From Pseudomonadota bacterium (lineage in GTDB: Bacteria; Pseudomonadota; Gammaproteobacteria; Acidiferrobacterales; Acidiferrobacteraceae): 64,000 bases of DNA. Positions 10,076 through 57,151 of this stretch are shown here, piece after piece (the first letter of the stretch is position 1; the number at the start of each line of letters is the position of its first letter). The DNA lies in assembly GCA_021784755.1 (NCBI GenBank), contig JAJYHM010000042.1, positions 1-64,000 of the forward strand, in the 5' to 3' direction. The translations under genes and the position numbers were made by a program. A model generated the notes under the pieces. That model was not told where the DNA came from. It saw only the letters and a program-made list of their open reading frames with translations, and searched no databases.

Positions 10076-12436
10076 GTGCGTATAGGCAAACAGTGGCTGA
10101 GTGAGTGGCTGGATTCGCGGTTGCCCTTCGAGGCGCTGGCCGCGGTCTTGACCCGCGGCGGCTTCGAGGTCGAGGGCGCGGGCATCGCGGGGCCCATGCT
10201 TCCGGGGGTCGTGGTGGCGCGCATTATGGCCACCACGGCGCACCCCAATGCGGAGCGCCTGCGGGTCTGCGAGGTGGAGGCGGGCGGCGAGCGGCGTACG
10301 GTCGTATGCGGTGCGCCGAATGCGCGCGTGGGTCTGAAGGCGCCGCTTGCCCTGCCAGGGGCGGTGCTCGGGGATCGGACCATCGCCGAGACCGAGTTGC
10401 GCGGCGTGCGATCCCAGGGGATGTTGTGCTCGGGCGGCGAACTGGGGCTGCCCGCCACCGAAGGGCTGTGGGAGTTGCCGGCCGACGCTCCAGTGGGTGT
10501 GGGGCTCGCGGACTATTTCCGGTTCGCGGATCCCTATCTGGATGTGGCGGTCACACCGAATCGAGGCGATTGCCTGAGCGTCAAAGGCATGGCGCGCGAG
10601 ATCGCGGCACTCACCGACGGTCGTTACCGGGCCCCGCGGCCCCGGGCCCTGAAGACGAGCGGGGTCACTCCGCGCGTGGCTGTGCAGGATCCGTCACGGT
10701 GTCCGCGGTATTGTGCGCGGCTTGTGAGTGGCTTGGAACCGACGGCCACGAGCCCCGGGTGGCTCGTCGAGCGTCTTCGCTTGAGTGGGGCCTCCGCGCG
10801 CCAAGCCGTCGTGGATGTCACCAATTATATTCTGTTTGATCTCGGCCAACCTCTGCACGCCTTCGATGCGGCGTCGATACGCGGCGATGTGGCAGTGCGG
10901 CTTGCACGCCCAGGCGAGGAGATCACGCTTCTCGACGGCCAGACGTGCGTCCTGCAGGCTACGGATCTCATCATCGCCGACGCCGAGGGGCCGCTTGCCA
11001 TCGCCGGCGTCATGGGGGGGCGGCGCGCGGCCGTGGGTCCTACGACGCGTAGCATCCTGCTCGAGGCGGCACATTTTCGTCCCGACACCCTCTCGCAGAC
11101 CGCGCGGCGCCTGGGGCTGACCACCGAGGCTGCCCTGCGCTTCGAACGCGGTGTCGACCCTGAGCTCTGCGGGCTTGCCCTCGAGCGCGCCACGGCCCTG
11201 ATTTTGAAGATCGCAGGCGGAGTCGCCAGTCCGGCCGCCGAACATCGCGCGCCCGACTATGGGCCGCGCCGCGAGCCAATCCGCCTGCGCCTGGAGCGCG
11301 TACGCCAGCTGCTCGGCGTGGCGGTACCGCGGGCCCGGGTCGCGCGCCTTCTGAAGGGTCTGGGGATGGCTGTGGCGGCCTCGCATGGGGGTTTGCTCGT
11401 GACGGCGCCGTCTTTCCGGTTCGATGTGCGTGGTGAGATCGATCTCATCGAGGAGGTCGCGCGTCTTCTCGGCTACGACGAGATTCCGACGGTCGAGCTC
11501 CCGTATACCCCGGGGGCGGCGCGGTCTGCGCCCTCGGGACGGCGTCGCGCCGCCGACTTGCTCGTGGACCGTGATTATCAGGAGGCCATAACCTTCAGCC
11601 TGGTCGATCCGGGGGAGCAGGCGCAGCTGGAGGTCTCCTCAAGCCTCGCCCTGCGTAACCCCCTGGCTGGCCCCTGGTCGGAGCTGCGCGCCAGTCTCGT
11701 TCCCGGCTTGCTCGCCACCGCACTCCACAATCGCCGGCGCCAACAGGGGCGGGTGCGGCTTTTTGAGATCGGGACCTGCTTTACGGCCGATCCCGCGGGC
11801 GCCGGCGTACGCGAGGAGATGAAGATCGCGGGCGTGGCCTTGGGCCCGGCCCTGCCTGAACAATGGGGGGCGCCGGCGCGGCCGGTGGACTTCTTCGATG
11901 TCAAAGGCGATGTCGAGGCCCTGTGCGCGCTGGTCGGGCAGACGGCTCGAGTAAGCCCGGACGGGGCCGCGCCGTTTCTGCAAAAGGGTCTGGGCGCGGC
12001 GATCACCGTCGCCGGGCACCCTGTGGGCTTTGTGGGTGGTCTCGCGGGCGGCCATCGCGAACGGCTCGGTTTCGAGGAGCCGGTGTTTGTTTTCGAGCTA
12101 TCGGCATCCCTTTTTGAGGCGCAGGCCGCAGGCGGCGCGGTTGAGCCGCCACGCTTCCCGTCGGTGCGCCGCGATCTGGCCGTGGTGGTGCCCGCTACGA
12201 CAGCTGCCGGGGACGTCCTGGATACCGTTCGTCGGAGCGCCGGGGCCCTTCTGCAGGGGCTCGTTGTGTTTGATGTGTATCAGGGCAAAGGTCTTGATTT
12301 AGGAAAGAAAAGTTTGGCCTTGGGCTTGACCTTGCAGGACTTCTCGCGCACTCTTACGGATGAGGTTGTAGAAGGGCTTGTGGCGCGCGTTGTGGAGTCG
12401 CTCGCGACCACTTACGGAGCGGTGCTCCGACAATAA
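10076..12436 (+). CDS. pheT: Phenylalanyl-tRNA synthetase beta subunit
   Basis: A 786-residue beta chain (E. coli 795) starting at GTG 10076, directly after pheS. It has an N-terminal tRNA-binding OB fold (PNAERLRVCEVEAGG), a B3/4 editing domain that clears Tyr-tRNA-Phe (DVTNYILFDLGQPLHAFD), B5, a catalytic-like module (about 470-680), and a C-terminal ferredoxin-like anticodon-binding domain (PSVRRDLAVVVP, about residue 700). No oddities seen. Confidence 0.98.
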   Translation: MRIGKQWLSEWLDSRLPFEALAAVLTRGGFEVEGAGIAGPMLPGVVVARIMATTAHPNAERLRVCEVEAGGERRTVVCGAPNARVGLKAPLALPGAVLGDRTIAETELRGVRSQGMLCSGGELGLPATEGLWELPADAPVGVGLADYFRFADPYLDVAVTPNRGDCLSVKGMAREIAALTDGRYRAPRPRALKTSGVTPRVAVQDPSRCPRYCARLVSGLEPTATSPGWLVERLRLSGASARQAVVDVTNYILFDLGQPLHAFDAASIRGDVAVRLARPGEEITLLDGQTCVLQATDLIIADAEGPLAIAGVMGGRRAAVGPTTRSILLEAAHFRPDTLSQTARRLGLTTEAALRFERGVDPELCGLALERATALILKIAGGVASPAAEHRAPDYGPRREPIRLRLERVRQLLGVAVPRARVARLLKGLGMAVAASHGGLLVTAPSFRFDVRGEIDLIEEVARLLGYDEIPTVELPYTPGAARSAPSGRRRAADLLVDRDYQEAITFSLVDPGEQAQLEVSSSLALRNPLAGPWSELRASLVPGLLATALHNRRRQQGRVRLFEIGTCFTADPAGAGVREEMKIAGVALGPALPEQWGAPARPVDFFDVKGDVEALCALVGQTARVSPDGAAPFLQKGLGAAITVAGHPVGFVGGLAGGHRERLGFEEPVFVFELSASLFEAQAAGGAVEPPRFPSVRRDLAVVVPATTAAGDVLDTVRRSAGALLQGLVVFDVYQGKGLDLGKKSLALGLTLQDFSRTLTDEVVEGLVARVVESLATTYGAVLRQ

Positions 12437-15606: not shown

Positions 15607-16623
15607 ATGAAGATATTGGTCACGGGCGGCACCGGGTATATCGGTTCGCATACCGCGCTCTGCCTCATGGAGGCGGGCCATGACGTGGTCCTTTGGGACA
15701 ATCTATCAAATAGCCGCGTCGCGGTCGTGGACCGCATGGCTATGATCGCCGGCGCCCGGCCCGTCTTCGTGCAGGGCGACGTGCGCGACGCTGCGGCCCT
15801 GGACCGTCTCTTGGGCGATCATGGCTTCGACGGCGTGATCCATTTCGCGGGTCTTAAGGCGGTGGGGGAGTCGGTCGAGAAGCCGCTTCTTTATTATGAA
15901 AACAATGTCCAGGGCACGGTGACGCTCCTGCGGGCCATGCAGAAGGCCGGCGTGAAGACCTTTGTGTTCTCCTCCTCGGCGACCGTTTACGGGAACCCGA
16001 CGAAGGTCCCCATACGCGAAGACTTCCCGCGTGCGGCCACCAACGCCTACGGGCGCTCCAAGATCATGATCGAGGACGTGTTAGCGGATATCGTCGCCGC
16101 TGATGCGCATTGGCGGATCGCCCGGTTGCGCTACTTCAATCCCGTCGGTGCTCATGAAAGCGGTCTCGTGGGAGAGGACCCGCAGGACGTCCCTAATAAT
16201 CTCATGCCCTATATCTGTCAGGTCGCTGTCGGCCGACGGCCGCTTTTGCGGATATTTGGCGCCGACTATGACACGCCGGACGGCACCGGTGTGCGCGACT
16301 ATATCCATGTCGTCGATCTGGCAGAGGGGCATGTGGCGGCGTTGCATTACCTCGCGGCCCATGAGGGCATGCTGACTGTGAACTTTGGGACCGGCCGCGG
16401 CTACTCGGTGCTGGACATGGTGGCAGCCTTCGGGCGCGCCTGTGGGCGGCCGATCCCCTACAGGATCGAGGCGCGCAGGCCGGGTGATATCGCGCAGTGT
16501 TATGCGGATCCCGAGGCCGCGCATCGGCTGCTCGGGTGGCGGGCGGTCTACGATCTTGATCGGATGTGCGCCGATGCATGGCGTTGGCAAGAGCGTAATC
16601 CGGAGGGTTACCGGACATCCTGA
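15607..16623 (+). CDS. galE: UDP-glucose/UDP-N-acetylglucosamine 4-epimerase (GalE type)
   Basis: A 338-residue extended short-chain dehydrogenase with tightly held NAD. N-terminal Rossmann motif VTGGTGYIGSHTA, catalytic Ser in FVFSSSATVYG (about residue 123), catalytic YxxxK in NAYGRSKIMIED (about 149-153), and C-terminal RRPGDIAQCYADP. At the substrate-size position of GalE enzymes (Tyr299 in E. coli, Cys307 in human) this protein has Cys298, so it should accept N-acetylated sugars too. Pel is rich in GalNAc, and GalE-like PelX enzymes accompany some pel loci. The EAL gene and pelG lie immediately beyond on the opposite strand. A ggagg site precedes the ATG at 15607. Confidence 0.93.
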   Translation: MKILVTGGTGYIGSHTALCLMEAGHDVVLWDNLSNSRVAVVDRMAMIAGARPVFVQGDVRDAAALDRLLGDHGFDGVIHFAGLKAVGESVEKPLLYYENNVQGTVTLLRAMQKAGVKTFVFSSSATVYGNPTKVPIREDFPRAATNAYGRSKIMIEDVLADIVAADAHWRIARLRYFNPVGAHESGLVGEDPQDVPNNLMPYICQVAVGRRPLLRIFGADYDTPDGTGVRDYIHVVDLAEGHVAALHYLAAHEGMLTVNFGTGRGYSVLDMVAAFGRACGRPIPYRIEARRPGDIAQCYADPEAAHRLLGWRAVYDLDRMCADAWRWQERNPEGYRTS

Positions 16624-16674: not shown

Positions 16675-17961
16675 TCAGGGCCGTGGCGTGCCGCCGCCCT
16701 CGTAGGGCACGAGATCGCAACAGAAGACCCGGGTCGCGCCCGCGATCTCGTAGGCGCAGGCAAGCGTGACGCAAAGGGTCGCGTCGGCGAGCGAGAAATA
16801 CGGCCGCGTTCGTTGCATACGCCCCGGTTGCTCGAGGGCCCTGCGTACGTAGGGCCGCGAGAGGTGCTCGGTCCCCGAGGCATGGGCGAGCGGGGCATAG
16901 CGCGGATCGGTGCCGGCCACGCGCGATGCGGGAATGTAGGGGCTTCCGATTTCGCGTCCGTCCCGATCGAGAAGATAGGCGCGCAGCACGCCCTCTTGGC
17001 CGTCGAAGGCCGCGCACGCGTCGCCAAGTGGTAGGCCGTCTTTCAGGCGGGTGATCATGGCGGCGAACACCACGTCGACCGCCTGCGCGGGGTTCTGGGA
17101 GGACGCGGCTGCGATGCGCAAGCGGTCACAGAGTGTCGACAGCACCGCGGGCTCCTCTTCGGCGGGGGTCGAGCGTGGCCGTCCCAGCAGAAAGCCCTGC
17201 ATGAGATCCACGCCACTATCGAGGGCGATCAGCCCCTGGTCCTCGGTCTCTATCCCCTCCATGACGACCAGCGCTCCGATCTCGTGCAGGAGCGCGACCA
17301 AGTGCGGGAGGAGGTTGCGGATGCGCCGATTCCCGATGCTTTGTGCGATGAGGGACCGGTCGAGTTTGACGAACTCCGGAGACAGATTCCAGAGGCGATC
17401 GAAGTTCGAGTGGCCGGACCCGAAGTCGTCTATGGCGGTCAGGCAGCCGCGGCTTCGGAAGTAGGCGACCGCTTCCGCCAGACGCGCCGGATCGGCCACC
17501 GCACCCTCGAGGATCTCGACGACGAGCCTGCCCCCTTGGATCGCGAAGTGACGCAGCAGCCGACCGAGGAAGGGGCTGTGGTTTTCGCGGGAGATGATGG
17601 ACCGCATGTCGATATTGAGAAAGAGCCACTGTGTCTCGCACCCGAGGCGCAGGAAGTTTCTGACATGCAGGAAGCGCGTCAAGCGGTCGATATGGACGGC
17701 CTCGGCATCGGACCGCACCGCACCGAAGACCTCGAGGGGTGAGACTCGGTCGCCGTTGGGGCGGTGGGCGCGCAGCAGGGCTTCGTGACCGACTACGCGA
17801 CGTTGGGCGACGCTAAAAATCGGCTGGAAGACGCTTTCCATGACAAGCCCGTCGTGATGGGCCACGGCGGCCTCGCCATCCTGCGCAAGAAAGCTTTCCG
17901 GGGGGCCGAAGGGCGGGAGGGGATTGGTCTTTGGGGTCCATTGAAGTGCGGTATTCGTCAT
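16675..17961 (-). CDS. c-di-GMP phosphodiesterase: EAL domain plus C-terminal sensor-like domain
   Basis: A 428-residue soluble protein from the ATG at 17961 (perfect aggagg upstream). The EAL domain (about 40-270) retains each residue class needed for metal and c-di-GMP hydrolysis: E60 (GHEALLR), N116 (FLNID), E149 (VVEILE), D178-D179 (AIDDFGSG), K199 (VKLD), E235 (VMEGIET), Q255 (MQGF). The C-terminal 150 residues (LRAYLLDRDGREIGSPYIP, then RPYFSLADATLCVTLACAY) resemble a PAS/Cache-like ligand domain, an architecture like Bacillus YkuI. It is 138 bases downstream of pelG on the same strand with no visible terminator, so it may be the last gene of the pel unit and lower the c-di-GMP that PelD senses. 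Confidence 0.88.
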   Translation of the reverse strand: MTNTALQWTPKTNPLPPFGPPESFLAQDGEAAVAHHDGLVMESVFQPIFSVAQRRVVGHEALLRAHRPNGDRVSPLEVFGAVRSDAEAVHIDRLTRFLHVRNFLRLGCETQWLFLNIDMRSIISRENHSPFLGRLLRHFAIQGGRLVVEILEGAVADPARLAEAVAYFRSRGCLTAIDDFGSGHSNFDRLWNLSPEFVKLDRSLIAQSIGNRRIRNLLPHLVALLHEIGALVVMEGIETEDQGLIALDSGVDLMQGFLLGRPRSTPAEEEPAVLSTLCDRLRIAAASSQNPAQAVDVVFAAMITRLKDGLPLGDACAAFDGQEGVLRAYLLDRDGREIGSPYIPASRVAGTDPRYAPLAHASGTEHLSRPYVRRALEQPGRMQRTRPYFSLADATLCVTLACAYEIAGATRVFCCDLVPYEGGGTPRP

Positions 17962-18099
17962 GATGTCCTCCTGCCCGCCATCGCGACTGCGGACACCGAT
18001 CCGCTGCCGGGCCGGAATGTAGGCCACTTTCGATGTTTGTCGTGTCGTAGCGTCACTATCTCCCGACGCCATGAAGGCTATGTGACAGCCCGTTTGCGG

Positions 18100-19482
18100 T
18101 CAGCGGGTCCACGGTTGCAGCATGAAGGTCTGATATTCGACCGCTTCCATGTCGCGATCGAGCCACGCCAGCCCTACGAGAACCGTTACCAGCAACGAGA
18201 CTGAGAAACCATAACCATAGTAGTAAAGCCCGAGGTAGGTGCTTGCCAGCGAGAGTCCTAGATTCAGGGCAAGGAAGATCGCAGCGAGCCCCACCGCGCG
18301 CGATCGGCGATCGAGATAGAAGAAGATGTTGAGGATGCCCATGAGCGCCACCTGAAGCCCCGCGCCGACCACATCGATCTTGAAGAGCGGGACATAGAGG
18401 AGCGAAATCCCAAGAGACCGCAAGACCGAAGGCCCGATCACGAAGGCAAGAATCGTGGTGAGCGACTGGACCTTGATGATATCGAAGATGCCGCTCTTGG
18501 CGCTCGTCACCATGCCGTTGCGCATATTGCGTATATAGGAGAGGCTCCCGCCTTCGCGGACGCCTTCGTAGAAGCGGTCGTAATACTCGACGAAATCGGT
18601 CTCGACGCGCATGAGAAACACGGCCATGCCGGGGATGATGGAGAGGTAGGCCAGGAAGATGGGGAGGTCATATACGGCCGATGCCCGCAGGGGGCCTATG
18701 ATGGGTTGGCTCGTGGCAGGCGTGAACCAGAACACGGCCTTGTCGGCCCAGATGGCGGCGTTGTACAAGAGGCCGCAGGCGAGTAGCGAGGGATACATGC
18801 GCCCGCGCTTTAGAAAGTCGAAGGCGAGGAAGTCCGGAGAGGGGTAGTCGCGGTAGACGGCGGCGAGGAGGCCCGCGAACAACAGGCTCTGCCCCAACAG
18901 GAAGGCGAACAGCAGTCCGACGAGCCCGTAGGGGCGTAGTAGTAGCCCGACGCCGAGCGCCGTCGCGTAGGCGGCGGCGAAACTCGCGAGGATGGCGTGA
19001 TAATGCTTGAGCCCGGTCAACATGACCGCCACTACCCACACGCCGGTCAGGAGTGAAAAGAGCGCTATCATCAACAGCCGATAGACGAGGCCGGTACCCG
19101 TGAACAGGAAGAAACCGATTGGCACCGCCACCACCAGCGCGCTGCCCATGGCGACGATCAAAAGCCCGTTCAGATTGGGGAGCACGCGATCGTGTTCGCG
19201 CGCAAACACCCGGTCGGCGACGTAGCGTGTGAAGGCGAGCTGCCAGAGTCCCCCGAATATCAGACTTACGGCGATCAGGTAGGTGACCGACGTCTGAAAC
19301 TCGCTTATGAGGCGGGGTGGGAAGACGTGGTGCATGCTGAGGAACCCAAGGAGGATGACCCCAAGGATGGAGATCACCCACGGGCCCGCACCTATGATGC
19401 CGGCGTAGGAGTAGGCGCGCACGACGCCCAGGTAATCGTTGTGCCGCATGAGCTTGCGGAGCTCGAAGCCTATGCCTGCCAT
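18100..19482 (-). CDS. pelG: Pel polysaccharide inner-membrane transporter PelG
   Basis: A 460-residue polytopic membrane protein of the MOP/flippase-like PelG family (P. aeruginosa 456). Start MAGIGFELRKLMRHNDYLG is typical. About twelve hydrophobic segments follow (for example GAGPWVISILGVILLGFLS and IGPLRASAVYDLPIFLAYL). With PelD and PelE it forms the inner-membrane complex that works with PelF to polymerise and export Pel. The start lies 66 bases after pelF. Confidence 0.95.
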   Translation of the reverse strand: MAGIGFELRKLMRHNDYLGVVRAYSYAGIIGAGPWVISILGVILLGFLSMHHVFPPRLISEFQTSVTYLIAVSLIFGGLWQLAFTRYVADRVFAREHDRVLPNLNGLLIVAMGSALVVAVPIGFFLFTGTGLVYRLLMIALFSLLTGVWVVAVMLTGLKHYHAILASFAAAYATALGVGLLLRPYGLVGLLFAFLLGQSLLFAGLLAAVYRDYPSPDFLAFDFLKRGRMYPSLLACGLLYNAAIWADKAVFWFTPATSQPIIGPLRASAVYDLPIFLAYLSIIPGMAVFLMRVETDFVEYYDRFYEGVREGGSLSYIRNMRNGMVTSAKSGIFDIIKVQSLTTILAFVIGPSVLRSLGISLLYVPLFKIDVVGAGLQVALMGILNIFFYLDRRSRAVGLAAIFLALNLGLSLASTYLGLYYYGYGFSVSLLVTVLVGLAWLDRDMEAVEYQTFMLQPWTR

Positions 19483-21069: not shown

Positions 21070-22058
21070 GGCGTGGCGTTCCAGAAGCGGACCACAGGCC
21101 CGATCGTGGGCACATCGCAAAGCGACGGATAGTCCCGCGCGAGCAATTTGAGGGCGGCGAAATCTCCGAGACGAAAGCGTGTTTCGGCGAGGTAGGGCAG
21201 GATCTGTCCGGGGGCCGCGTTCAGGTCCAGGGCGCGTTCGCAGTGCGTACGGGCCGCCAGATAATGCCCCTCGAGCATGGCGATGCGCCCCATGAGGACG
21301 TGGAGCGTGGGGTCATTGGGGCGGCGTTTCAAAGCGGCCAGGGCATGCGTCTGCGCGCGGCGAATGGCGTGCTGGCGGAGGTGGTCCCGGGAAAGGTCTT
21401 GATAGAGAAGCTCCCAGTAGAGAAAGGCCAGGCGTTTTTCGAGGAGGCCCTCGTCGTCCTGAGGCCCGGGCGATTGTCTGCGCGTCAAGGCCTCGCTGAT
21501 CGCCTCCGACAGGTTGCCCTCGCGCCGGTCGAGGAGTCCGTAGGCGAGCAGCCGCAGGTCTTCCTCCGGGTGGCGCAGGGCACTGCGTACGAGCGGGGAG
21601 GTCTGGCGCGAGAGCCGCGGGTCGAGCGAGAGCAAGGCGCGCACCCCGCGCGCCACCCCGGCATCCTTCGCGCGTAGGATCGCCCACGCACCCCCGGCCC
21701 CCATGTGGCGTTGTCGTCCCCGCATCTCGGCGCCGAAGGCCGGCAGCCCCAGGGTCTGCGGTTCTGGTAAAGAGGAATGGCTTGCAAGTCGGGTAATGCC
21801 GGCGGCGATGATGAGTGCGATCAGAAGCCCGAGGCCCGGAATGGCAGCGATGATCACGGCCAAGAGCCAGGAGGCCTGGTGTTCGCGGTAAGACGGGGGC
21901 AATAGGTGCGCCATAGGGCGCGCCAGCGCCAAGGCCAGAACGCCGTTTGCGATCACGATATACAGAAAGAGAAGCCGTGTCGGCAGCTCGTCGAACGGGC
22001 GTCCGACGCCAGCGCGCGAGGCGTGGGAGAGGACGTAGGATGCGATATCAGGGGTCAT
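21066..22058 (-). CDS. pelE: Pel inner-membrane protein PelE
   Basis: A 330-residue protein (P. aeruginosa 329). Two N-terminal membrane helices (FLYIVIANGVLALALA about 30-46 and WLLAVIIAAIPGLGLLIALI about 64-83) precede a cytoplasmic TPR-like helical domain (RALLSLDPRLSRQ, HVLMGRIAMLEGHYLAARTH). PelE joins PelD and PelG in the synthase complex. Its start overlaps the end of pelD by 11 bases and its stop overlaps pelF by 4. Confidence 0.92.
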   Translation of the reverse strand: MTPDIASYVLSHASRAGVGRPFDELPTRLLFLYIVIANGVLALALARPMAHLLPPSYREHQASWLLAVIIAAIPGLGLLIALIIAAGITRLASHSSLPEPQTLGLPAFGAEMRGRQRHMGAGGAWAILRAKDAGVARGVRALLSLDPRLSRQTSPLVRSALRHPEEDLRLLAYGLLDRREGNLSEAISEALTRRQSPGPQDDEGLLEKRLAFLYWELLYQDLSRDHLRQHAIRRAQTHALAALKRRPNDPTLHVLMGRIAMLEGHYLAARTHCERALDLNAAPGQILPYLAETRFRLGDFAALKLLARDYPSLCDVPTIGPVVRFWNATP

Positions 22059-23370
22059 GACGCACCCCCGCGGCCGCGTTCAAAAGGGTGAGCGCATCCT
22101 TGTTGCCGAATTCCCGGAGGGTCACGGAAAAGGTCGTGGGCCCGGGCTTGATGTTGAAGCGCTCCTCCAGGTAGGCGCTCACGCGCTCGATATAACCTTC
22201 GGCCACGGAACGGTTGCCAAACGGAATGAGGGTGACAAGTCGGTACGCGCCCGGTTCGCGGATGCGCCAGTTGTCGTCGAGGCCGCGTGCGAGCGTCGTG
22301 AGATTGTCGAGTATCTGGTCGCGCAGCGGCCCCTTGGCGATGGTGATGGTCACGAGACTGCTTTCGAGGCCAAGCTCGCGCGCGGCGCGTGCGAGCTTCA
22401 CCGTCTCAGCGGCGAAGCGGGGTGGACAGTGCGGCAGCGTGACCTGCGCCTCCTGCGCCACGCGTGTGGCATAAGCGTCGTCGGCGAAGTAGGCGAGCAG
22501 AACGCTCACCGTCAGGAGATTCTCGTCGTTTAGGAACAAGAAGGGCATGGACGCGACGACGAGCAGGCCGACCATGGTGCCGTCGGAGGCTGCAATGGGG
22601 GCGGTCACCAGGTAGGCGCTGTGCGCTCCGTCTTTGAGCGAATTTGCGGCCCAATAAGCCGTGCGTTGCTTTTCGAGGCAGCGCGTCACAAGGATATCGG
22701 TGCGATCCAAGGCGAATGCGGCGCCGATCGAGGCGCGCGGCGGTTCTTCGATGACACCCTCGGAGATTGCGTACAGCGCCGCCTGCTCGAAGCCGCCATG
22801 GTAGGCGGTCAAATGCAGGAGGCGCGCGGCGAGTCCTTCGGTGAGCGCTCCACCGTCGGTCGCCAGGGCGCGCCGCAGATCGAGGAGCGAATCGCGCAAG
22901 GTGACGGGCTTGCCGATGATGGTTTGTTCGAGCCTGTCGTGCGAGATGCGCGTCGCATGCAGCGTGCGTGTCAGGCTTTCCAGCTGTTGCGTGGCATACT
23001 GGCCCATTTGTTCCGCCCGCCGTAGCCGCAGGATCCATGTGGAGCCGTATTCACCCGCCAAGAGCGTGAGCACGACCCCACCCAGGAATTGTCCTTGCGG
23101 GAGGCCGCGCAGATGGAGTTCCGGTAGTCCCACGCGTGCCGCTACGAATGACAGGACGAGAATCCCGAGCGACAAGACCGCGGGTGCTAGCCCATAACGC
23201 AAGGCCACCAGGACCGGGGCGAACCATAGCCAAGGGAAGCTCGCGTTCAGAAGAAAGGGGTCACCTGGTCTGACCGCGAACGCCACCCCGATGGCAATTA
23301 CCGGTATCGCAACCGCCTCGCCCCAGGCGCGGGCCCGGAGGGAGGGTGCTAGGCGGTGGCGCAAATTCAC
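22048..23370 (-). CDS. pelD: Pel c-di-GMP receptor PelD
   Basis: A 440-residue inner-membrane receptor (P. aeruginosa 455). It starts at GTG 23370, which overlaps the pelC stop as GTGA. The long upstream frame is antisense noise. Four N-terminal helices (about 16-110) are followed by a GAF domain and a degenerate GGDEF domain with REPGA in place of GGDEF, so it cannot make c-di-GMP. The RxxD inhibitory-type site is kept as R362-G-L-D365 exactly five residues before that motif, with another arginine at 396. In P. aeruginosa the equivalent residues (R367, D370, R402) bind c-di-GMP and switch on Pel synthesis. Confidence 0.94.
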   Translation of the reverse strand: MNLRHRLAPSLRARAWGEAVAIPVIAIGVAFAVRPGDPFLLNASFPWLWFAPVLVALRYGLAPAVLSLGILVLSFVAARVGLPELHLRGLPQGQFLGGVVLTLLAGEYGSTWILRLRRAEQMGQYATQQLESLTRTLHATRISHDRLEQTIIGKPVTLRDSLLDLRRALATDGGALTEGLAARLLHLTAYHGGFEQAALYAISEGVIEEPPRASIGAAFALDRTDILVTRCLEKQRTAYWAANSLKDGAHSAYLVTAPIAASDGTMVGLLVVASMPFLFLNDENLLTVSVLLAYFADDAYATRVAQEAQVTLPHCPPRFAAETVKLARAARELGLESSLVTITIAKGPLRDQILDNLTTLARGLDDNWRIREPGAYRLVTLIPFGNRSVAEGYIERVSAYLEERFNIKPGPTTFSVTLREFGNKDALTLLNAAAGVRHDP

Positions 23371-23888
23371 GAAAGCAACCTGCGCACTATGGCGTTCAGG
23401 GTGTCCTCGGCGAGCACCCCCACGCTCTCGCGGGGCGAGCCGCTGCGGCTGCCGGTGGCCGTCCAGAGAACGCGGCCGCTCTTGGCGCTGATCAGGTTCA
23501 CGGTGACGGCCACCGCCGGCTGTCCATCCAGGCCTATGGTATAGCGCCATTCCTGGACCGCGCCCTCTACGACGTAGCGGGCGCCCATGGCGCGCGCCTG
23601 AGCGAGCCAGGCCGCCGGTTGGGGCGCGCGACCCAGGGGCAGGCGATCTTTCTGGTGCATCGTCATGGCATGCGCGCTCTTCAGGCCGTGGGCCAGCAAG
23701 AGGCTCGTCGTCATCGAGGCGGCCCGCGAACCTGCGCCGGGGGTGGTCGTATAGTTGGCGAACGGGGCAACGGCGATTATCGCACCGTGCGCAAAGCGCG
23801 GCGCGGGACTTGCGTGCAAGGCGGTGCTCGCGCAGCCCGATAAGGTGGTGGCCATCGTGATGCAAGAGATCCATTTCAAGGCATTCAT
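23367..23888 (-). CDS. pelC: Pel outer-membrane lipoprotein PelC
   Basis: A 173-residue lipoprotein with a signal peptide and lipobox (TTLSGC, cysteine 19). In P. aeruginosa PelC forms a 12-subunit periplasmic ring on the outer membrane that funnels Pel to PelB. The mature fold begins IIAVAPFANYT and contains YVVEGAVQEWRY. The C-terminal half has strand-helix segments typical of the family. The gene starts 9 bases downstream of the pelB barrel gene and its stop overlaps pelD. Confidence 0.93.
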   Translation of the reverse strand: MNALKWISCITMATTLSGCASTALHASPAPRFAHGAIIAVAPFANYTTTPGAGSRAASMTTSLLLAHGLKSAHAMTMHQKDRLPLGRAPQPAAWLAQARAMGARYVVEGAVQEWRYTIGLDGQPAVAVTVNLISAKSGRVLWTATGSRSGSPRESVGVLAEDTLNAIVRRLLS

Positions 23889-32468: not shown

Positions 32469-33138
32469 GGCTTAAGCACAGCTCCAGGGGCCCGAGGGCC
32501 AGCAAGAATTTCAGCGGCTGATCTTTTGCGGTTTCACGCAGGTGCGCCCCCGCGCTTCGCTGCGCCGGCGGAACCTGGCGGCGGCTCCGCGGGTGTGTTT
32601 TTGGTGGCCGAGGTGCGCCTCGCGGAGGCATCCCACATGGCCCTGCCGTAGGCAGACTCTCCGCTTCCCCCGCGTCATTAGAGAACGGCTCGACGTGAGG
32701 GGCTCGTAGCCCGCGCGGCATGGTAGTGCAATCCGGGAATACGAATCAATAGACGGAGATTGTGTACGGTCCTGCCGAATGGGCCGGTATTCCTCCAGGC
32801 TCGGCTATACTTAAAAAAACAAGAAGGGATGGGAGGCGGGTGAGGGGGGCCTATAGGGGCAACTCGGAGCACGCTTGGGCCTTTCGCGACTGTGTGGATG
32901 GGGGCATGAGGGTGGTATCGGCAGGGTCTACGCACGCGCCAGGGTTGATCGAGGCCCGGGGTGTCCTATGTCTTCACGCTGTATTCGCCTGGGGCTGGCC
33001 GCGACATCAGGGGGTCCGTATTGACTGCACGGCGCGACCGATGGGCCCTTGGGTGTCGATCGCCCCCCGGCGGCTCCTCGCGGATCGTCCGTTGGGCGGG
33101 ACGGCGCCCGTACGCCATCACGGCGCCGTCCTTACGCC
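32469..33138. other. Intergenic region between TauE/SafE and the GGDEF-EAL gene
   Basis: 670 bases between divergent genes. No reading frame has family similarity. The frame upstream of 33139 is open but reads as random basic sequence. The only strong structure is the hairpin at 33099-33131 described separately. A tract taaaaaaacaag (32811-32822) is unusually AT-rich for the region. Confidence 0.45.
33099..33131 (+). promoter_or_regulatory. 10-bp stem-loop just before the GGDEF-EAL gene
   Basis: ggacggcgcc (33099-33108) and ggcgccgtcc (33122-33131) pair perfectly around a 13-base loop, ending 7 bases before the ATG at 33139 and occupying the place where a ribosome site should be. As RNA this could restrict translation, or it could be a protein-binding operator in DNA. 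No Shine-Dalgarno is visible outside it. Confidence 0.45.
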
Positions 33139-35772
33139 ATGAGTGACAGGATGGCTCGACGACCGGGGCGATCGATTGTCGTAGTGTTCGGCGGGCTCGC
33201 GCTCGTTGCGATCTTCACGGTGGTTGTCTATGCCGTCACTTTCTGGGGCGATATGCGGCGCGAGGCCTGGAGCGAGCTCTCGGGGGCGGCGCGCTTCATG
33301 GCGACCACCACCGAGCTGCGCCTTAACGGCGACCGCTCCGCTCTGCGCTTGCTGGGTCGCGACATTGGCCGCTTGCCGGGTTTGAGTGCCGGCCAAGATA
33401 GCGCAGCCATCGACCGTCTCGGCCGGCGCTTCAGTCGTCGGCATCCGGAGATCGCAGGTCTTGCCCTGTTGGGTCCACACGGGTCGCTCTGGTGGCGGGA
33501 AGGGCTCGCCCCCCGCAGCGTCCGGCCTTGGGCGAGGGCAAGTGCTGCCGCGCAGCCCGGCATATTCAAGGTCGGGTCGGTTGATCGGTCGAATGCACGC
33601 GTCCCAGTGCTGCCTCTTTGGTCTACGATACGGGCGGGAGACCGGGTGCGATTTCGGATCTGTGCGCTTTTGTCCCTTGCGCGGCGGCAAGGATGGTGGC
33701 CGGGTCGTAAGATGGCACCCGGGACCGCGATTGGTCTCTTTGGGGTCGATGGGCGCGTCGAGGCCGTGTGGCCCGCCTCTCTCGGCGCTCCGGCCGTCAA
33801 GGCGGCCGCCGCCGTGGGTCCGGCCGGTGAAGGTCGTTTTGTCGCCCACCTGAAAGGGCGCGAGGGGACGTGGCTCGGGGTCGCGCGGCGCGTGCGACGA
33901 TACCCCTTCAGGGTATTCGCCCTTCGATCCATGCGTGCCGTGGATGCGCAGTGGTGGCACTTCGCCCGCCTGGGCCTGCTTTTGCTGGGCCTCGTTCTCG
34001 CGATCATCGCCTTTTTGTACAGGCGCACAGTGCACGGCCACACGCGCTTGGCCGAGGAGCGGGCCGTCACCGAGGCGCAGCTGTCCGCCGCCAGGGCACA
34101 TTTCGAGGGGACCCTGCAGTCTCTGGCGGAGGCGGTGATCGCGACCGACCAGGACGGTCGCGTAGAGTACGTGAATCGCGCCGCGGAGCGTCTCACGGGG
34201 TGGGCGGACCGGGAAATCCGGGGGCGCGCGCTCAATGACGTCCTGCCGTGCTTCGATGAATATAGCGGCGAGTCTATAGATCCGCTCGGGGCATGTCTGG
34301 CAGGGCAGGCGCTCGCCCCCGGGGACGCGTTTGTCTTTCACCGCGACGGCCGGGGGATTCCGGTGGAGTACAGCGGGGCCCCCAGGCTCGGTCCGCAGGG
34401 CGAGCTCGTGGGGGCCGTGCTATCGTTCCGCGATGCAGCCGAGAAGCGCCGGCTCGCGGAACGGCTCGTCCATCAGGCGACTCACGATCCGCTGACTGAG
34501 CTACCCAATCGCATCCTGTATAACGAGCGCCTGGAGCGGGCGCTGGTCGAGGCCAAAGAGAGCGGCAGTGTGGTCGCACTTCTCTTTCTCGACGTGGACG
34601 GTTTCAAGAGGGTGAACGACACACTCGGCCACAGCACCGGGGATCGTATCCTGGTGCTCATAGGGGAGCGCCTGAGGCGCGCGGTGCGTGCGGCGGATAC
34701 CTTGGCGCGCCTGGGTGGCGACGAGTTCGCGGTGGTTTTACCGGGGCTCAGGAGCCGTCAGGACGCGCTGCCGGTCGTGCACAAGATCATGGCTATTTTT
34801 CGCGAGCCCTTGGTGGTGGCGCTCGGCGAAGTCTCCTTGAGCGTCAGTATCGGTATTGCGGCGTATCCGGAAGACAGCGGCGATGGGCGCGCGCTCGTGC
34901 GGGCAGCCGATGCTGCCATGTACGAGGCCAAGGCCGCCGGCAAGGACGCTTATCGCTTTTTCGAAGGCCCTACCGCCGGCCGGTCCCAGGTGCATCCGTT
35001 GTCGGTCGCGACCACTCTGCGGCGTGCGCTCGAGCGCGAGGAATTTTGCCTTGTTTACCAGCCACAGGTGCGGGCGGCGAACCGCCGGCTCGTGGCGATG
35101 GAGGCCTTGTTGCGGTGGATGCATCCGGTGGAAGGCGTCAAATACCCCGGGGAGTTCCTCCTGGCCGTGGAGGAGGCGGGTCTCATGGCCGAGCTTGGCG
35201 TGTGGGTCTTGCGTGCGGCCTGTCGTCAGAATCGTGAGTGGCGCAACCTCGGCCTTGCCGCCTTCCCAGTGACCGTCAACGTATCGGGACATCAGTGTGG
35301 GGACGAGAGCTTGGCCTACGCGATCCGTGCGGTCTTGCGTGAGCACGATCTGACCCCCAACGATCTCGTCCTGGAGTTCACGGAGTCGGTTCTCGTGGGG
35401 GCTGCGGAAGTGTCGACGGAGGGGCTTCATGCCTTGCTGGATGAGGGCATCCAGTTTGCCGTCCAGAATTTCGGCGGCGCCTCGTCCTCGCTCGGCATGC
35501 TTCAGCAGTTGCGCGTGGGCATGCTGAAGATCGAGAGCGCGTTCATCGCCGGGATTGGTGAGAGCAGCAATGACGCGGTCATCCTGGCCATCATCGCCCT
35601 TGGGCATGCTCTCAACATGCGCGTGGTGGCCAGTGGGGTCGAGACCGCCGCCCAACATCGCTTCCTGGCAGATGCGGGCTGTGACGCTATGCAAGGCCAT
35701 TATATCGCAGCACCCCTTGATGCCGAGGCGGCGACCGCCTATCTCCGCACGCAGGAGGCCGCCGGGAGTTGA
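33139..35772 (+). CDS. Membrane diguanylate cyclase: sensor-PAS-GGDEF-degenerate EAL
   Basis: An 877-residue protein. Transmembrane helices at about 12-33 and 276-294 flank a roughly 240-residue periplasmic sensor of no recognised family. Then come a PAS domain (about 320-430, [20 protein letters not shown]), GGDEF (about 445-605) with an intact active site GGDEF 526-530 and I-site R517-A-A-D520, and an EAL domain (about 625-870). The EAL keeps EALL (655) and K797, but the metal-binding Asp pair of DDFG is Q776-N777 and the catalytic E of AEGVE is S832. It should therefore synthesise and perhaps bind, but not degrade, c-di-GMP. The start is chosen at ATG 33139 (ATG 33151 is possible). Confidence 0.9.
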
Positions 35773-54414: not shown

Positions 54415-55398
54415 ATGTCTATTGACTGGAGTCGCAAAGATGCCCGGACCACAGCCGATACGGGAGGGGTCGGGGGCGGCGCGCGAGCGCTTCGGAGGTA
54501 TGGGATTGTCATCCCGTCGGGTGCGTCCTTTGGGTCCGTGACGCTGCCGGACGGCCGCCTGCTCGCTTATGCGGATTACGGCCCACCTTCCGGGACACCG
54601 ATCCTCTATTGTCACGGCTTCCCGAGCTGCTCGCTCGAGGCGGGCCTCCTTGCCCCCGTGTTGGCCGCCGAGGGCGCGCGCATCATCGCCCCGGACCGGC
54701 CGGGCTACGGACGGTCGAGTCCCCTCAAGGGGCGCACCTTGAGAAGTTTTGCTGATGATGTCGCGGTGCTGCTCGATACGCTCGGGCTCGGTTCCGTCGC
54801 GGTCGTTGGGGTGTCGGGTGGTGGACCTTACGCCCTGTCTTTGCTTGCGCACATGCCGCAGCGTGTCACGCGCAGCGCCTTGGTAGGCGCCCTTGGACCC
54901 CCGGAGGCGCTCAGGGCGTGCCGCGACGACCTGTTTCCGCTCGTGCGCGGGGCCTTGCATCTCGCCGATCTTGGACCGGTCTTGGCCCCTCTGGTAGCAT
55001 GGCCCGTGACGCGCTTCCTGCGTTTGCGGGGTCGTTTGAGGTTGGGCGCCCGTCTTGCCTCGGCCGCGGATTGCGAGGTGCTGGCCGATCCCGCCGTGCT
55101 CGATGTTCTGGTAGCCGCACAGTACGAAGGCATGCGTCGCGGCGCGCAAGCGGCAGTGCAGGATCTCCTGTTGTATGTGCGGCCTTGGGACTTCTCCCTG
55201 GCCGAGATCTCATCGGAGTGCGCGCTCTGGCAGGGTGCAGCCGATCGCATCGTGCCGGCGCGTATGGCGCTCGAGATCGCCGCGCTGCTCCCGAGGGCCC
55301 GTCCACATCTGATCGAGGGCGAAGGACACTACTCCCTGCCTATTCGGTATCGGACCACTATCATCCGCGATGTCATAGGGCAGGGAGACCGTTCTTGA
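54415..55398 (+). CDS. Alpha/beta hydrolase
   Basis: A 327-residue hydrolase from ATG 54415 (gaggatg site). A roughly 45-residue N-terminal extension precedes the fold. Oxyanion region YCHGFPSCSLEAGLL, nucleophile elbow GVSGGGPYALSLLA (serine at about residue 143), acid in WQGAADRIVP and histidine in GEGHYSLPI complete a Ser-Asp-His triad. The substrate is unknown. Its last 26 bases overlap the end of the convergent GGDEF gene. Confidence 0.85.
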   Translation: MSIDWSRKDARTTADTGGVGGGARALRRYGIVIPSGASFGSVTLPDGRLLAYADYGPPSGTPILYCHGFPSCSLEAGLLAPVLAAEGARIIAPDRPGYGRSSPLKGRTLRSFADDVAVLLDTLGLGSVAVVGVSGGGPYALSLLAHMPQRVTRSALVGALGPPEALRACRDDLFPLVRGALHLADLGPVLAPLVAWPVTRFLRLRGRLRLGARLASAADCEVLADPAVLDVLVAAQYEGMRRGAQAAVQDLLLYVRPWDFSLAEISSECALWQGAADRIVPARMALEIAALLPRARPHLIEGEGHYSLPIRYRTTIIRDVIGQGDRS

Positions 55399-57151
55399 GC
55401 CAAAGCGCGAGCGCCGGGGCGTCGAGTTCGGGCGCGAAGGCAAGCCCCTGACCGTAGTCCCAGCCGATGGCATCGACCACCGTGCGGGCGGGAAGGGTAT
55501 CGATGCCGTCGACGTACACCGCGAGCCCCAGAGCGGTCATGCCTGCGCTGAGGGCACGCAGGAGGCGTGAGCCGCGCGCGTCGGCGACGGGATCGCACTT
55601 GACGCCATAGAGAGGCGTGGCGGCGATATGGGCCAGATCCGCGCGCTTGTACGCTTGGTATTGATCGACGATGAGACGCAGACCGCGCTCCTCCAGGGCC
55701 AAGGCAAGCCGCGCGCCGGCCTGGGGATGGGACGCGAGTACGTCATCTGGAACTTCCACGACGATGGTGCCGCTTTCGGCCCCGTAGATCTCGTTGCGCC
55801 AATCCGAGAGCCGGGTGGGCAGCCGTCGGTCATACAGTTCGGCGGCGTGGATATTGATGTGCAGGGGCGCGGGTGGGCGGCCGTAGCTTAGGCAATCACG
55901 TCGGGTCGCCGCGAGCAGGCATTCGAGAAGGCCGGTTCGCGCGGACGCTTCGACAAGTTCAGACGCCGTCTCTTCGCATACCGTTGTGCCATCGGATCTT
56001 TGCCAGCGCAGGCGGACCTCGATCCCGGCGGGGCGACCCGCGCGATCGAGAATGGGTTGGTAGCGAGGTTCCCAGAGATTATGCGATATGGCCGTCTCGA
56101 TATCGCGGCGCAGTTGCGAGCGCTGGGCGAGCCGCGCGGTATTGGCGCGCTCGAAGCAGCGGTAGCGGTCGCCCCCGGCGCGCTTGGCCTCGTACATGGC
56201 CTGATCCGCGTGCTGCAGCAAGACATCGGGCGGCTGATCGTCGAAAGGGTAGATCGTGAGGCCCACGCTTATGGTGACACCAAGAGAGTGCCCTTCAAAC
56301 GGGATCGGCTGGCGGACGGCGAACAGCATGCGGTCGAGCATGCCCTCAATTTGCTCGAGATGCGTTATGTCTTCCATGAGGATCACGAACTCGTCGCCGC
56401 CGTATCGGCTCACGGTATCGGCCAGGCGAACAGAATTCGCCAGCCGCCCGGCCACGGTCGCGAGCAGATGGTCGCCTGCTTCATGCCCAAGTTCGTCGTT
56501 GATGCCTTTGAAGCTGTCCACATCGAGGAGCGCGATGACAAGCAAGTGGTTGTGCCGCCCGGCCCTGCGACAGCCATGGGCGAGGCGATCCATGAGGACG
56601 CTGCGATTGGGTAGCCCCGTGAGCGGATCGTACCTTGCATCGCGGGTAAGCGCCGCTTCGACGGCCGAGCGGTAGCTGGCATTACCCATGAAGGCCACCA
56701 AGGCCTCTACGAGGCGCAGTCTGCGTCGCGTCGGCGGCCGCCGCGGCCGATGCCGCCAGGCGAGCACCAGCGCACCTTCAACGCGCCCCGCCACACGCAT
56801 GGGTACGACGAGGTGCGAGGCGAGGTCTATGCCCGGTGCGGGGGTGACAAAGGCGCTCTCAGTCGCATATAGGGTTTGGCCAAGGATAAGGACCTGCCCG
56901 ACGGTGTCGGCGTTTGCAATCAGGATCTCCGGCGTGGGGGGCTGTTCGCCCGCGGGGTCTAGGGCGAAAAAGAACTCGTAACGCAACGGATTTCCGGGCC
57001 GCCGGATGAGACCGGCGTAATCTGCATTGACCGCAAGCCCCGCGGCGCGCGCCGCATTGCAGAAGAAGCGGTCGAATTCCAGCGTGTTTGCAAGTTCGTG
57101 GAAAAGCTGTTCCGGAAGAGGCGGCGATATAGGGTTCTTGTACGCGGCCAT
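55373..57151 (-). CDS. Cytoplasmic diguanylate cyclase: GAF-like-GGDEF-degenerate EAL
   Basis: A 592-residue protein with no membrane segment. A GAF-like sensor (about 15-160: LVVPMRVAGRVEGALVLAW), GGDEF (about 165-335) with active motif GGDEF at 251-255 and I-site R242-L-A-D245 five residues before it, then a C-terminal EAL-like domain (about 355-592). In the latter EAL is EVR (378-380), DDFG is VDQY (495-498, first Asp lost), and AEGVE is VDGID (both glutamates Asp). It is thus predicted to make c-di-GMP but not hydrolyse it. The ORF end overlaps the convergent hydrolase by 26 bases. Confidence 0.87.
   Translation of the reverse strand: MAAYKNPISPPLPEQLFHELANTLEFDRFFCNAARAAGLAVNADYAGLIRRPGNPLRYEFFFALDPAGEQPPTPEILIANADTVGQVLILGQTLYATESAFVTPAPGIDLASHLVVPMRVAGRVEGALVLAWRHRPRRPPTRRRLRLVEALVAFMGNASYRSAVEAALTRDARYDPLTGLPNRSVLMDRLAHGCRRAGRHNHLLVIALLDVDSFKGINDELGHEAGDHLLATVAGRLANSVRLADTVSRYGGDEFVILMEDITHLEQIEGMLDRMLFAVRQPIPFEGHSLGVTISVGLTIYPFDDQPPDVLLQHADQAMYEAKRAGGDRYRCFERANTARLAQRSQLRRDIETAISHNLWEPRYQPILDRAGRPAGIEVRLRWQRSDGTTVCEETASELVEASARTGLLECLLAATRRDCLSYGRPPAPLHINIHAAELYDRRLPTRLSDWRNEIYGAESGTIVVEVPDDVLASHPQAGARLALALEERGLRLIVDQYQAYKRADLAHIAATPLYGVKCDPVADARGSRLLRALSAGMTALGLAVYVDGIDTLPARTVVDAIGWDYGQGLAFAPELDAPALALWLKNGLPAL

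Follow-up and report, generated by a model that had tools for sequence, protein, structure and literature searches.

The gene for an EAL-type c-di-GMP phosphodiesterase that lies directly behind pelG in the 64,000-nucleotide stretch of DNA analysed here (the window) raises the question of whether it belongs to the pel operon or answers to a signal of its own. A sequence-only reading of this locus had placed the gene 138 bases behind pelG, on the same strand and with no evident terminator in between, and had proposed that its transcription together with pel would give negative feedback on Pel production. The distance and orientation were confirmed (gap 17962-18099), and no terminator-like site was detected in these 138 bases. 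Additionally, no sigma-70 -35/-10 pair was found in the gap, and its predicted RNA fold is not unusual (z -1.4). A Pho-box-like element followed by a -10-like hexamer was identified there (Table 1), and the reading that we consider likely is that the gene encodes a soluble, PhoB-induced phosphodiesterase with its own promoter, which would lower c-di-GMP under phosphate starvation and affect Pel indirectly. A longer ORF for the same gene, starting at 18072 (465 aa), was discarded, since its ATG falls inside the promoter element and the start at 17961 is preceded by a good Shine-Dalgarno sequence.

Table 1. Features of the EAL locus and of the adjoining pel and galE genes, in window coordinates
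Feature	Position	Strand	Basis or remark
EAL phosphodiesterase gene, 428 aa, YkuI-like layout (EAL plus C-terminal Cache-like domain)	16675..17961	-	ORF (ATG at 17961, stop codon ending at 16675), PF00563, AlphaFold model, PDB matches to YkuI (2bas/2w27)
EAL catalytic domain, residues 42-262, catalytic residues all present	17176..17838	-	Pfam PF00563, alignment
C-terminal YkuI_C/Cache-like sensor domain, ~residues 295-417, predicted cytoplasmic	16711..17079	-	Conserved motifs, weak Pfam matches, YkuI as best PDB match
Shine-Dalgarno AGGAGG, five bases upstream of the 17961 start	17967..17972	-	Sequence
-10-like hexamer GATAGT, separated from the box by exactly 10 nt	18055..18060	-	Pho promoters of pstS and the porin in the genus have the same spacing
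Pho-box-like element CTGTCAC-ATAG-CCTTCAT, matching CTGTCAT-N4-CTGTCAT at 11/14 positions	18071..18088	-	Conserved ahead of the orthologous genes of G011, G009, G004 and G008
pelG, last gene of pelABCDEFG	18100..19482	-	PF16933, E=4e-150
pelD ORF, c-di-GMP receptor, RGLD motif kept	22048..23874	-	PF16963, alignment to P. aeruginosa PelD (4etx)
galE, convergent neighbour	15607..16623	+	TIGR01179/PRK10675; synteny (G011 and G009 lack pel upstream and still have it next to the EAL gene)

The element begins 11 bases past the pelG stop codon and follows the layout of PhoB-activated promoters, in which two 7-base repeats separated by 4 bases stand in place of the -35 hexamer (PMC4415409). The corresponding sites upstream of the orthologues read CTGTCAT-ACGG-CTTTCAT-N10-GATAGT in G011 (box 13/14), GCGTCAT-GATC-GAGTCAT-N10-GATAGT in G004, GCGTCAT-AATA-GAGTCAT-N10-GATAGT in G008 and CCGTCAT-CAAA-ACTTCAT-N10-CATAGT in G009 (box 10/14 in each of the last three). 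A box, 10 nt and (G/C)ATAGT are found ahead of the EAL gene in five species from three lineages, the hexamer opening with G or C and not with T. A MAFFT alignment of the five upstream regions misaligned G004 and G008, and the element was consequently read ungapped and scored separately. The neighbours upstream of this conserved element differ, being pelG, a heptosyltransferase-like ORF in G009 or a divergent beta-barrel gene in G011; two of the five species (G009 and G011) have no pel genes upstream of the EAL gene. The sequence-only reading had itself listed an independent promoter in this gap, along with a terminator, as speaking against its proposal; such a promoter is present at the level of sequence. 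In G008 (L079), a long stem (CCCACCATGGGCGCC...GGCACCCATGGTGGG) was observed at ~11100-11200, within the predicted leader that runs from the Pho-like promoter to the EAL start; G004 holds this stem only in part.

With no stop signal for transcription detected between pelG and the promoter, read-through from pelG is possible. Basal read-through from pel combined with PhoB induction, by which the gene would integrate pel expression and phosphate status in the species that carry it behind pelG, is a variant of the preferred reading and compatible with it. The lack of a terminator and the closeness of the box to the pelG stop codon favour this variant; however, the arrangement is unconserved in most pel-bearing relatives, and we regard it as possible without being the expected outcome.

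Genuine Pho sites of the genus offer a standard for the predicted promoter. The 10-nt spacing was observed for the pstS Pho box in 13/13 genus genomes and for the box of the porin-pstB-phoU operon in 12 of the 13 genomes examined, the ten bases leading to TANNNT in every case. The window genome has this architecture at its pst genes; its phoR (on L144), phoU and pstB sit together, and a PhoB-like response regulator gene, named by sequence reading and context, lies directly upstream of phoR. Because the five upstream regions are related, the p-values are not fully independent, and they are to be read in the knowledge that the element was spotted before scoring: with a matrix trained on pstS and porin promoters only, the element ranked first upstream of the EAL gene in each of the five species (p 0.0004-0.014), and with CTGTCAT-N4-CTGTCAT plus the A and T of the hexamer, the chance per species ranged from 5e-5 (G011) to 2.6e-3 (G008), combining to ~1e-7 (Fisher, three lineages). 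On this matrix, the five EAL sites fell well short of the sites used for training; the window box reached 5.9 versus 28-38 for the pstS and porin boxes. Across both strands of the window, 13/16 was reached at one position only, that of the element, and the G011 site, with 1 mismatch over 16 positions, equalled pstS as the best in its genome. Genome-wide counts, which derive from pattern searches, gave approximately fourfold more sites with the Pho pattern (<=3 mismatches) than with a reversed control in 14 genomes. As a negative control, no significant box was found upstream of 13 distant homologues in the class (p 0.1-1.0), which indicates that the statistic is not inflated; likewise, no significant Pho-like box was found for G034, G036, L010 and L011. 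The gap looks to hold a Pho-type promoter of the gene's own, with a predicted PhoB site whose box is imperfect in the window itself.

OmpR-family regulators bind tandem repeats with similar spacing, and the second half-sites are degenerate in several of the species. The conserved promoter might be real and yet answer to another regulator of this family instead of PhoB. We consider this unlikely, since the element fits the Pho box, its -10 spacing equals that of pstS and porin in the same genomes, and the G011 box departs from the consensus at a single base.

Under the preferred reading of a PhoB-induced phosphodiesterase, the EAL gene would owe most of its transcription to a PhoB-activated promoter of its own, sited just past the pelG stop codon. 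Under phosphate scarcity, PhoR-PhoB would turn the gene on and the induced enzyme would linearise c-di-GMP; c-di-GMP-dependent outputs would then fall, including Pel synthesis via PelD where a pel operon is present, and cells would detach. Given its own PhoB-like promoter, the gene probably serves to shut biofilm formation down as phosphate runs out and not to provide pel feedback. The identities of PelG, PelF and PelD were confirmed in the window, and the role of PelD as a c-di-GMP receptor, assumed in the sequence-only reading, agrees with its intact RGLD motif. Pel would be one output of lowered c-di-GMP, as the window PelD keeps this motif of the P. aeruginosa receptor. The listed pelD ORF overlaps pelC (23367-23888) in another frame, and its true start probably lies well inside. 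A guess based on neighbourhood, operon feedback, is replaced here by a specific prediction, namely that phosphate starvation induces the phosphodiesterase.

The distribution of the gene in the genus bears on whether it tracks pel. The EAL gene is absent, wrecked or located elsewhere in 7 of the 10 pel-bearing species. It adjoins pelG in the window genome (G000), G004 and G008, and as a wreck in G005. Reading of the pelG-galE stretch revealed pel without the EAL gene in five species: pelG and galE are direct neighbours in G003, G007 and G013, and other sequence lies between them in G001 and G012. In the G005 remnant (L086, G005:C11, 10551-11470), the first ~147 codons are lost and the frame is broken, next to intact pel genes 80-94% identical to those of the window and a galE 92% identical; the frame break may be partly technical because of the low coverage (2.4x), the deletion less so. 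G009 (99% complete) encodes the EAL gene with no pelG; the gene has the same galE junction, is split over two contig ends and lies behind the heptosyltransferase-like ORF. In G011, the gene is found between galE and tauE, and pel is on another contig. These G011 pel genes (L081, G011:C19) occupy a separate 6.7 kb contig and are 70-86% identical to those of the window, and most genes beside the G011 EAL gene are 85-99% identical to their window counterparts; a diverged pel operon may have displaced an earlier one, or the contig may be misbinned. Transposase-like ORFs were observed downstream of the EAL gene in G004 and G008 (L078, L079), with galE ~7 kb from it in G008, and represent a possible means of rearranging this neighbourhood.

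In a tree of PstS, porin and PstB, G009 branches apart from the clade that holds the other EAL-bearing species, with a support of 99, support at other nodes being uneven. This placement suggests that the EAL gene is probably older than its position behind pelG and was lost several times; transfer between species may be an alternative history. Beyond the genus, an EAL-Cache homologue was identified in 14 of 274 class genomes, the window's included. Among the other 13, only G195 also appeared among the pelG-bearing genomes identified, with the two genes on different contigs, and a general link of EAL-Cache genes to pel was rejected. Furthermore, 19 further pelG loci in the class showed no EAL relative within the fetched flank (~1.5 kb in most). 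Linkage with the pel genes is not conserved across the relatives, and the presence of the EAL gene is independent of pel. The literature, to the extent that its texts were available, yielded no description of a phosphodiesterase gene behind pelG.

These distributions weigh on the proposal that the EAL gene closes the pel operon, is transcribed along with it and exerts negative feedback on Pel via PelD. The short same-strand gap with no terminator, the repeated adjacency to pelG in G004 and G008 and the intact PelD motif would all fit such an arrangement. Against it, the gap holds a conserved promoter of its own, five pel species lack the gene, G005 retains a wreck, the G011 gene stands apart from pel, the G009 gene occurs without pelG, and the further pelG loci of the class add no case. 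The feedback role is not supported, and we consider it quite improbable. The simplest account is a self-contained unit of Pho-type promoter and predicted phosphodiesterase that happens to sit behind pelG in some species. A position behind an exopolysaccharide operon does not by itself make a phosphodiesterase gene part of it.

The preferred reading also requires a working enzyme. The window protein matches PF00563 with E = 1.2e-42 (146 bits versus a cut-off of 31.3), and its predicted structure shows EAL fold matches (AlphaFold model against the PDB). An alignment with eight relatives bore out the earlier observation that every catalytic residue class is kept: E60 (EALLR), N116, E149, E152, D178-D179 (DDFGSG), K199, E235 and Q255, the positions used by active EAL enzymes, are all present, and the full set is retained in every same-genus orthologue. 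As had been claimed, both GGDEF-EAL proteins of the window have degenerate catalytic motifs, with QNFGG in place of DDFGTG and ASGVET in place of EGVET in one (33049-35772), and VDQYQ in place of DDFG and DGIDT in place of EGVET in the other (55373-57151). The gene behind pel most likely makes a working c-di-GMP-destroying enzyme. Intact residues are not proof of this activity, because YkuI, the closest architecture, is to our knowledge not known as an active phosphodiesterase. That the protein instead binds c-di-GMP without hydrolysing it, as an effector or trigger enzyme of the kind suspected for YkuI, would be in line with this likeness and with the changed metal-ligand position (E149K) of the G034 homologue, but runs against the intact catalytic positions of all same-genus orthologues and seems to us a poor prospect. 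The lysine at this position in G034 (L084) suggests an inactive relative. Stops and frame changes mark a homologue from another genus of this family (L087, G015:C9, 5023-6158) as a pseudogene, and pelG was not found in G015.

A sensor-like C-terminal domain had also been suggested, and a YkuI/Cache-like identity is suggested by the fold match. The region is conserved from the window's genus to Nitrosomonadales and Salinisphaera, with the motifs R-Y-LLD, RPYFRRA, PG, RPY-S and C-T (alignment A2). The top PDB matches of the AlphaFold model (pLDDT 78.9) are B. subtilis YkuI 2bas and 2w27, covering both domains over ~410 columns, with a different domain packing (TM about 0.5, rmsd 17). Weak Pfam matches were each confined to a single orthologue: YkuI_C at E=0.022, with no YkuI_C match for the window protein, and dCache_1 at E=0.11. 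According to PMC4822843, YkuI_C is a Cache family that is mainly intracellular. Together, this conservation, the fold match and the weak Pfam matches suggest that the C-terminal ~125 residues are most likely a cytoplasmic Cache-type sensor, which may respond to a ligand. A more ambitious picture, in which promoter, pel read-through and Cache ligand converge on one PelD-silencing phosphodiesterase as a previously undescribed phosphate-starvation switch on Pel, is speculative and in our view rather doubtful.

Compared with known systems, YkuI of Bacillus subtilis has the domain order predicted for the window protein, with a cytoplasmic Cache-like domain behind the EAL domain. However, it is only ~20-22% identical to the window protein, in which YkuI_C lies below the reach of Pfam, and it is not known as Pho-regulated or pel-linked. 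The pel cluster of Acidithiobacillus thiooxidans and A. caldus (PMC5852609) resembles the window in that a UDP-glucose 4-epimerase gene follows pelG at the end of pelABCDEFG; its description mentions no EAL gene between the two, whereas in the window the EAL gene separates pelG from a convergent galE. In the CdgE/PelD circuit of Bacillus cereus, a phosphodiesterase likewise lowers Pel production through PelD; CdgE differs in that it resides in the membrane and combines GGDEF with EAL domains, and its gene is treated in PMC7112168 as part of a global c-di-GMP network and not as a gene behind pel. The closest counterpart in regulation is RapA of P. fluorescens Pf0-1, a phosphodiesterase that is induced by PhoB, draws down c-di-GMP when phosphate is low and leads to detachment (PMC3032545). 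The window gene similarly encodes a predicted c-di-GMP phosphodiesterase behind a Pho-box-like element and would be expected to deplete c-di-GMP at low phosphate and undo the biofilm. This likeness, drawn by description, extends to regulation and predicted activity only; the window protein combines EAL with a C-terminal Cache-like domain, and its neighbour is the pel operon instead of the Lap system. If the prediction holds, the locus would represent a RapA-like link from phosphate to c-di-GMP, built on a different enzyme architecture and able to act on Pel.
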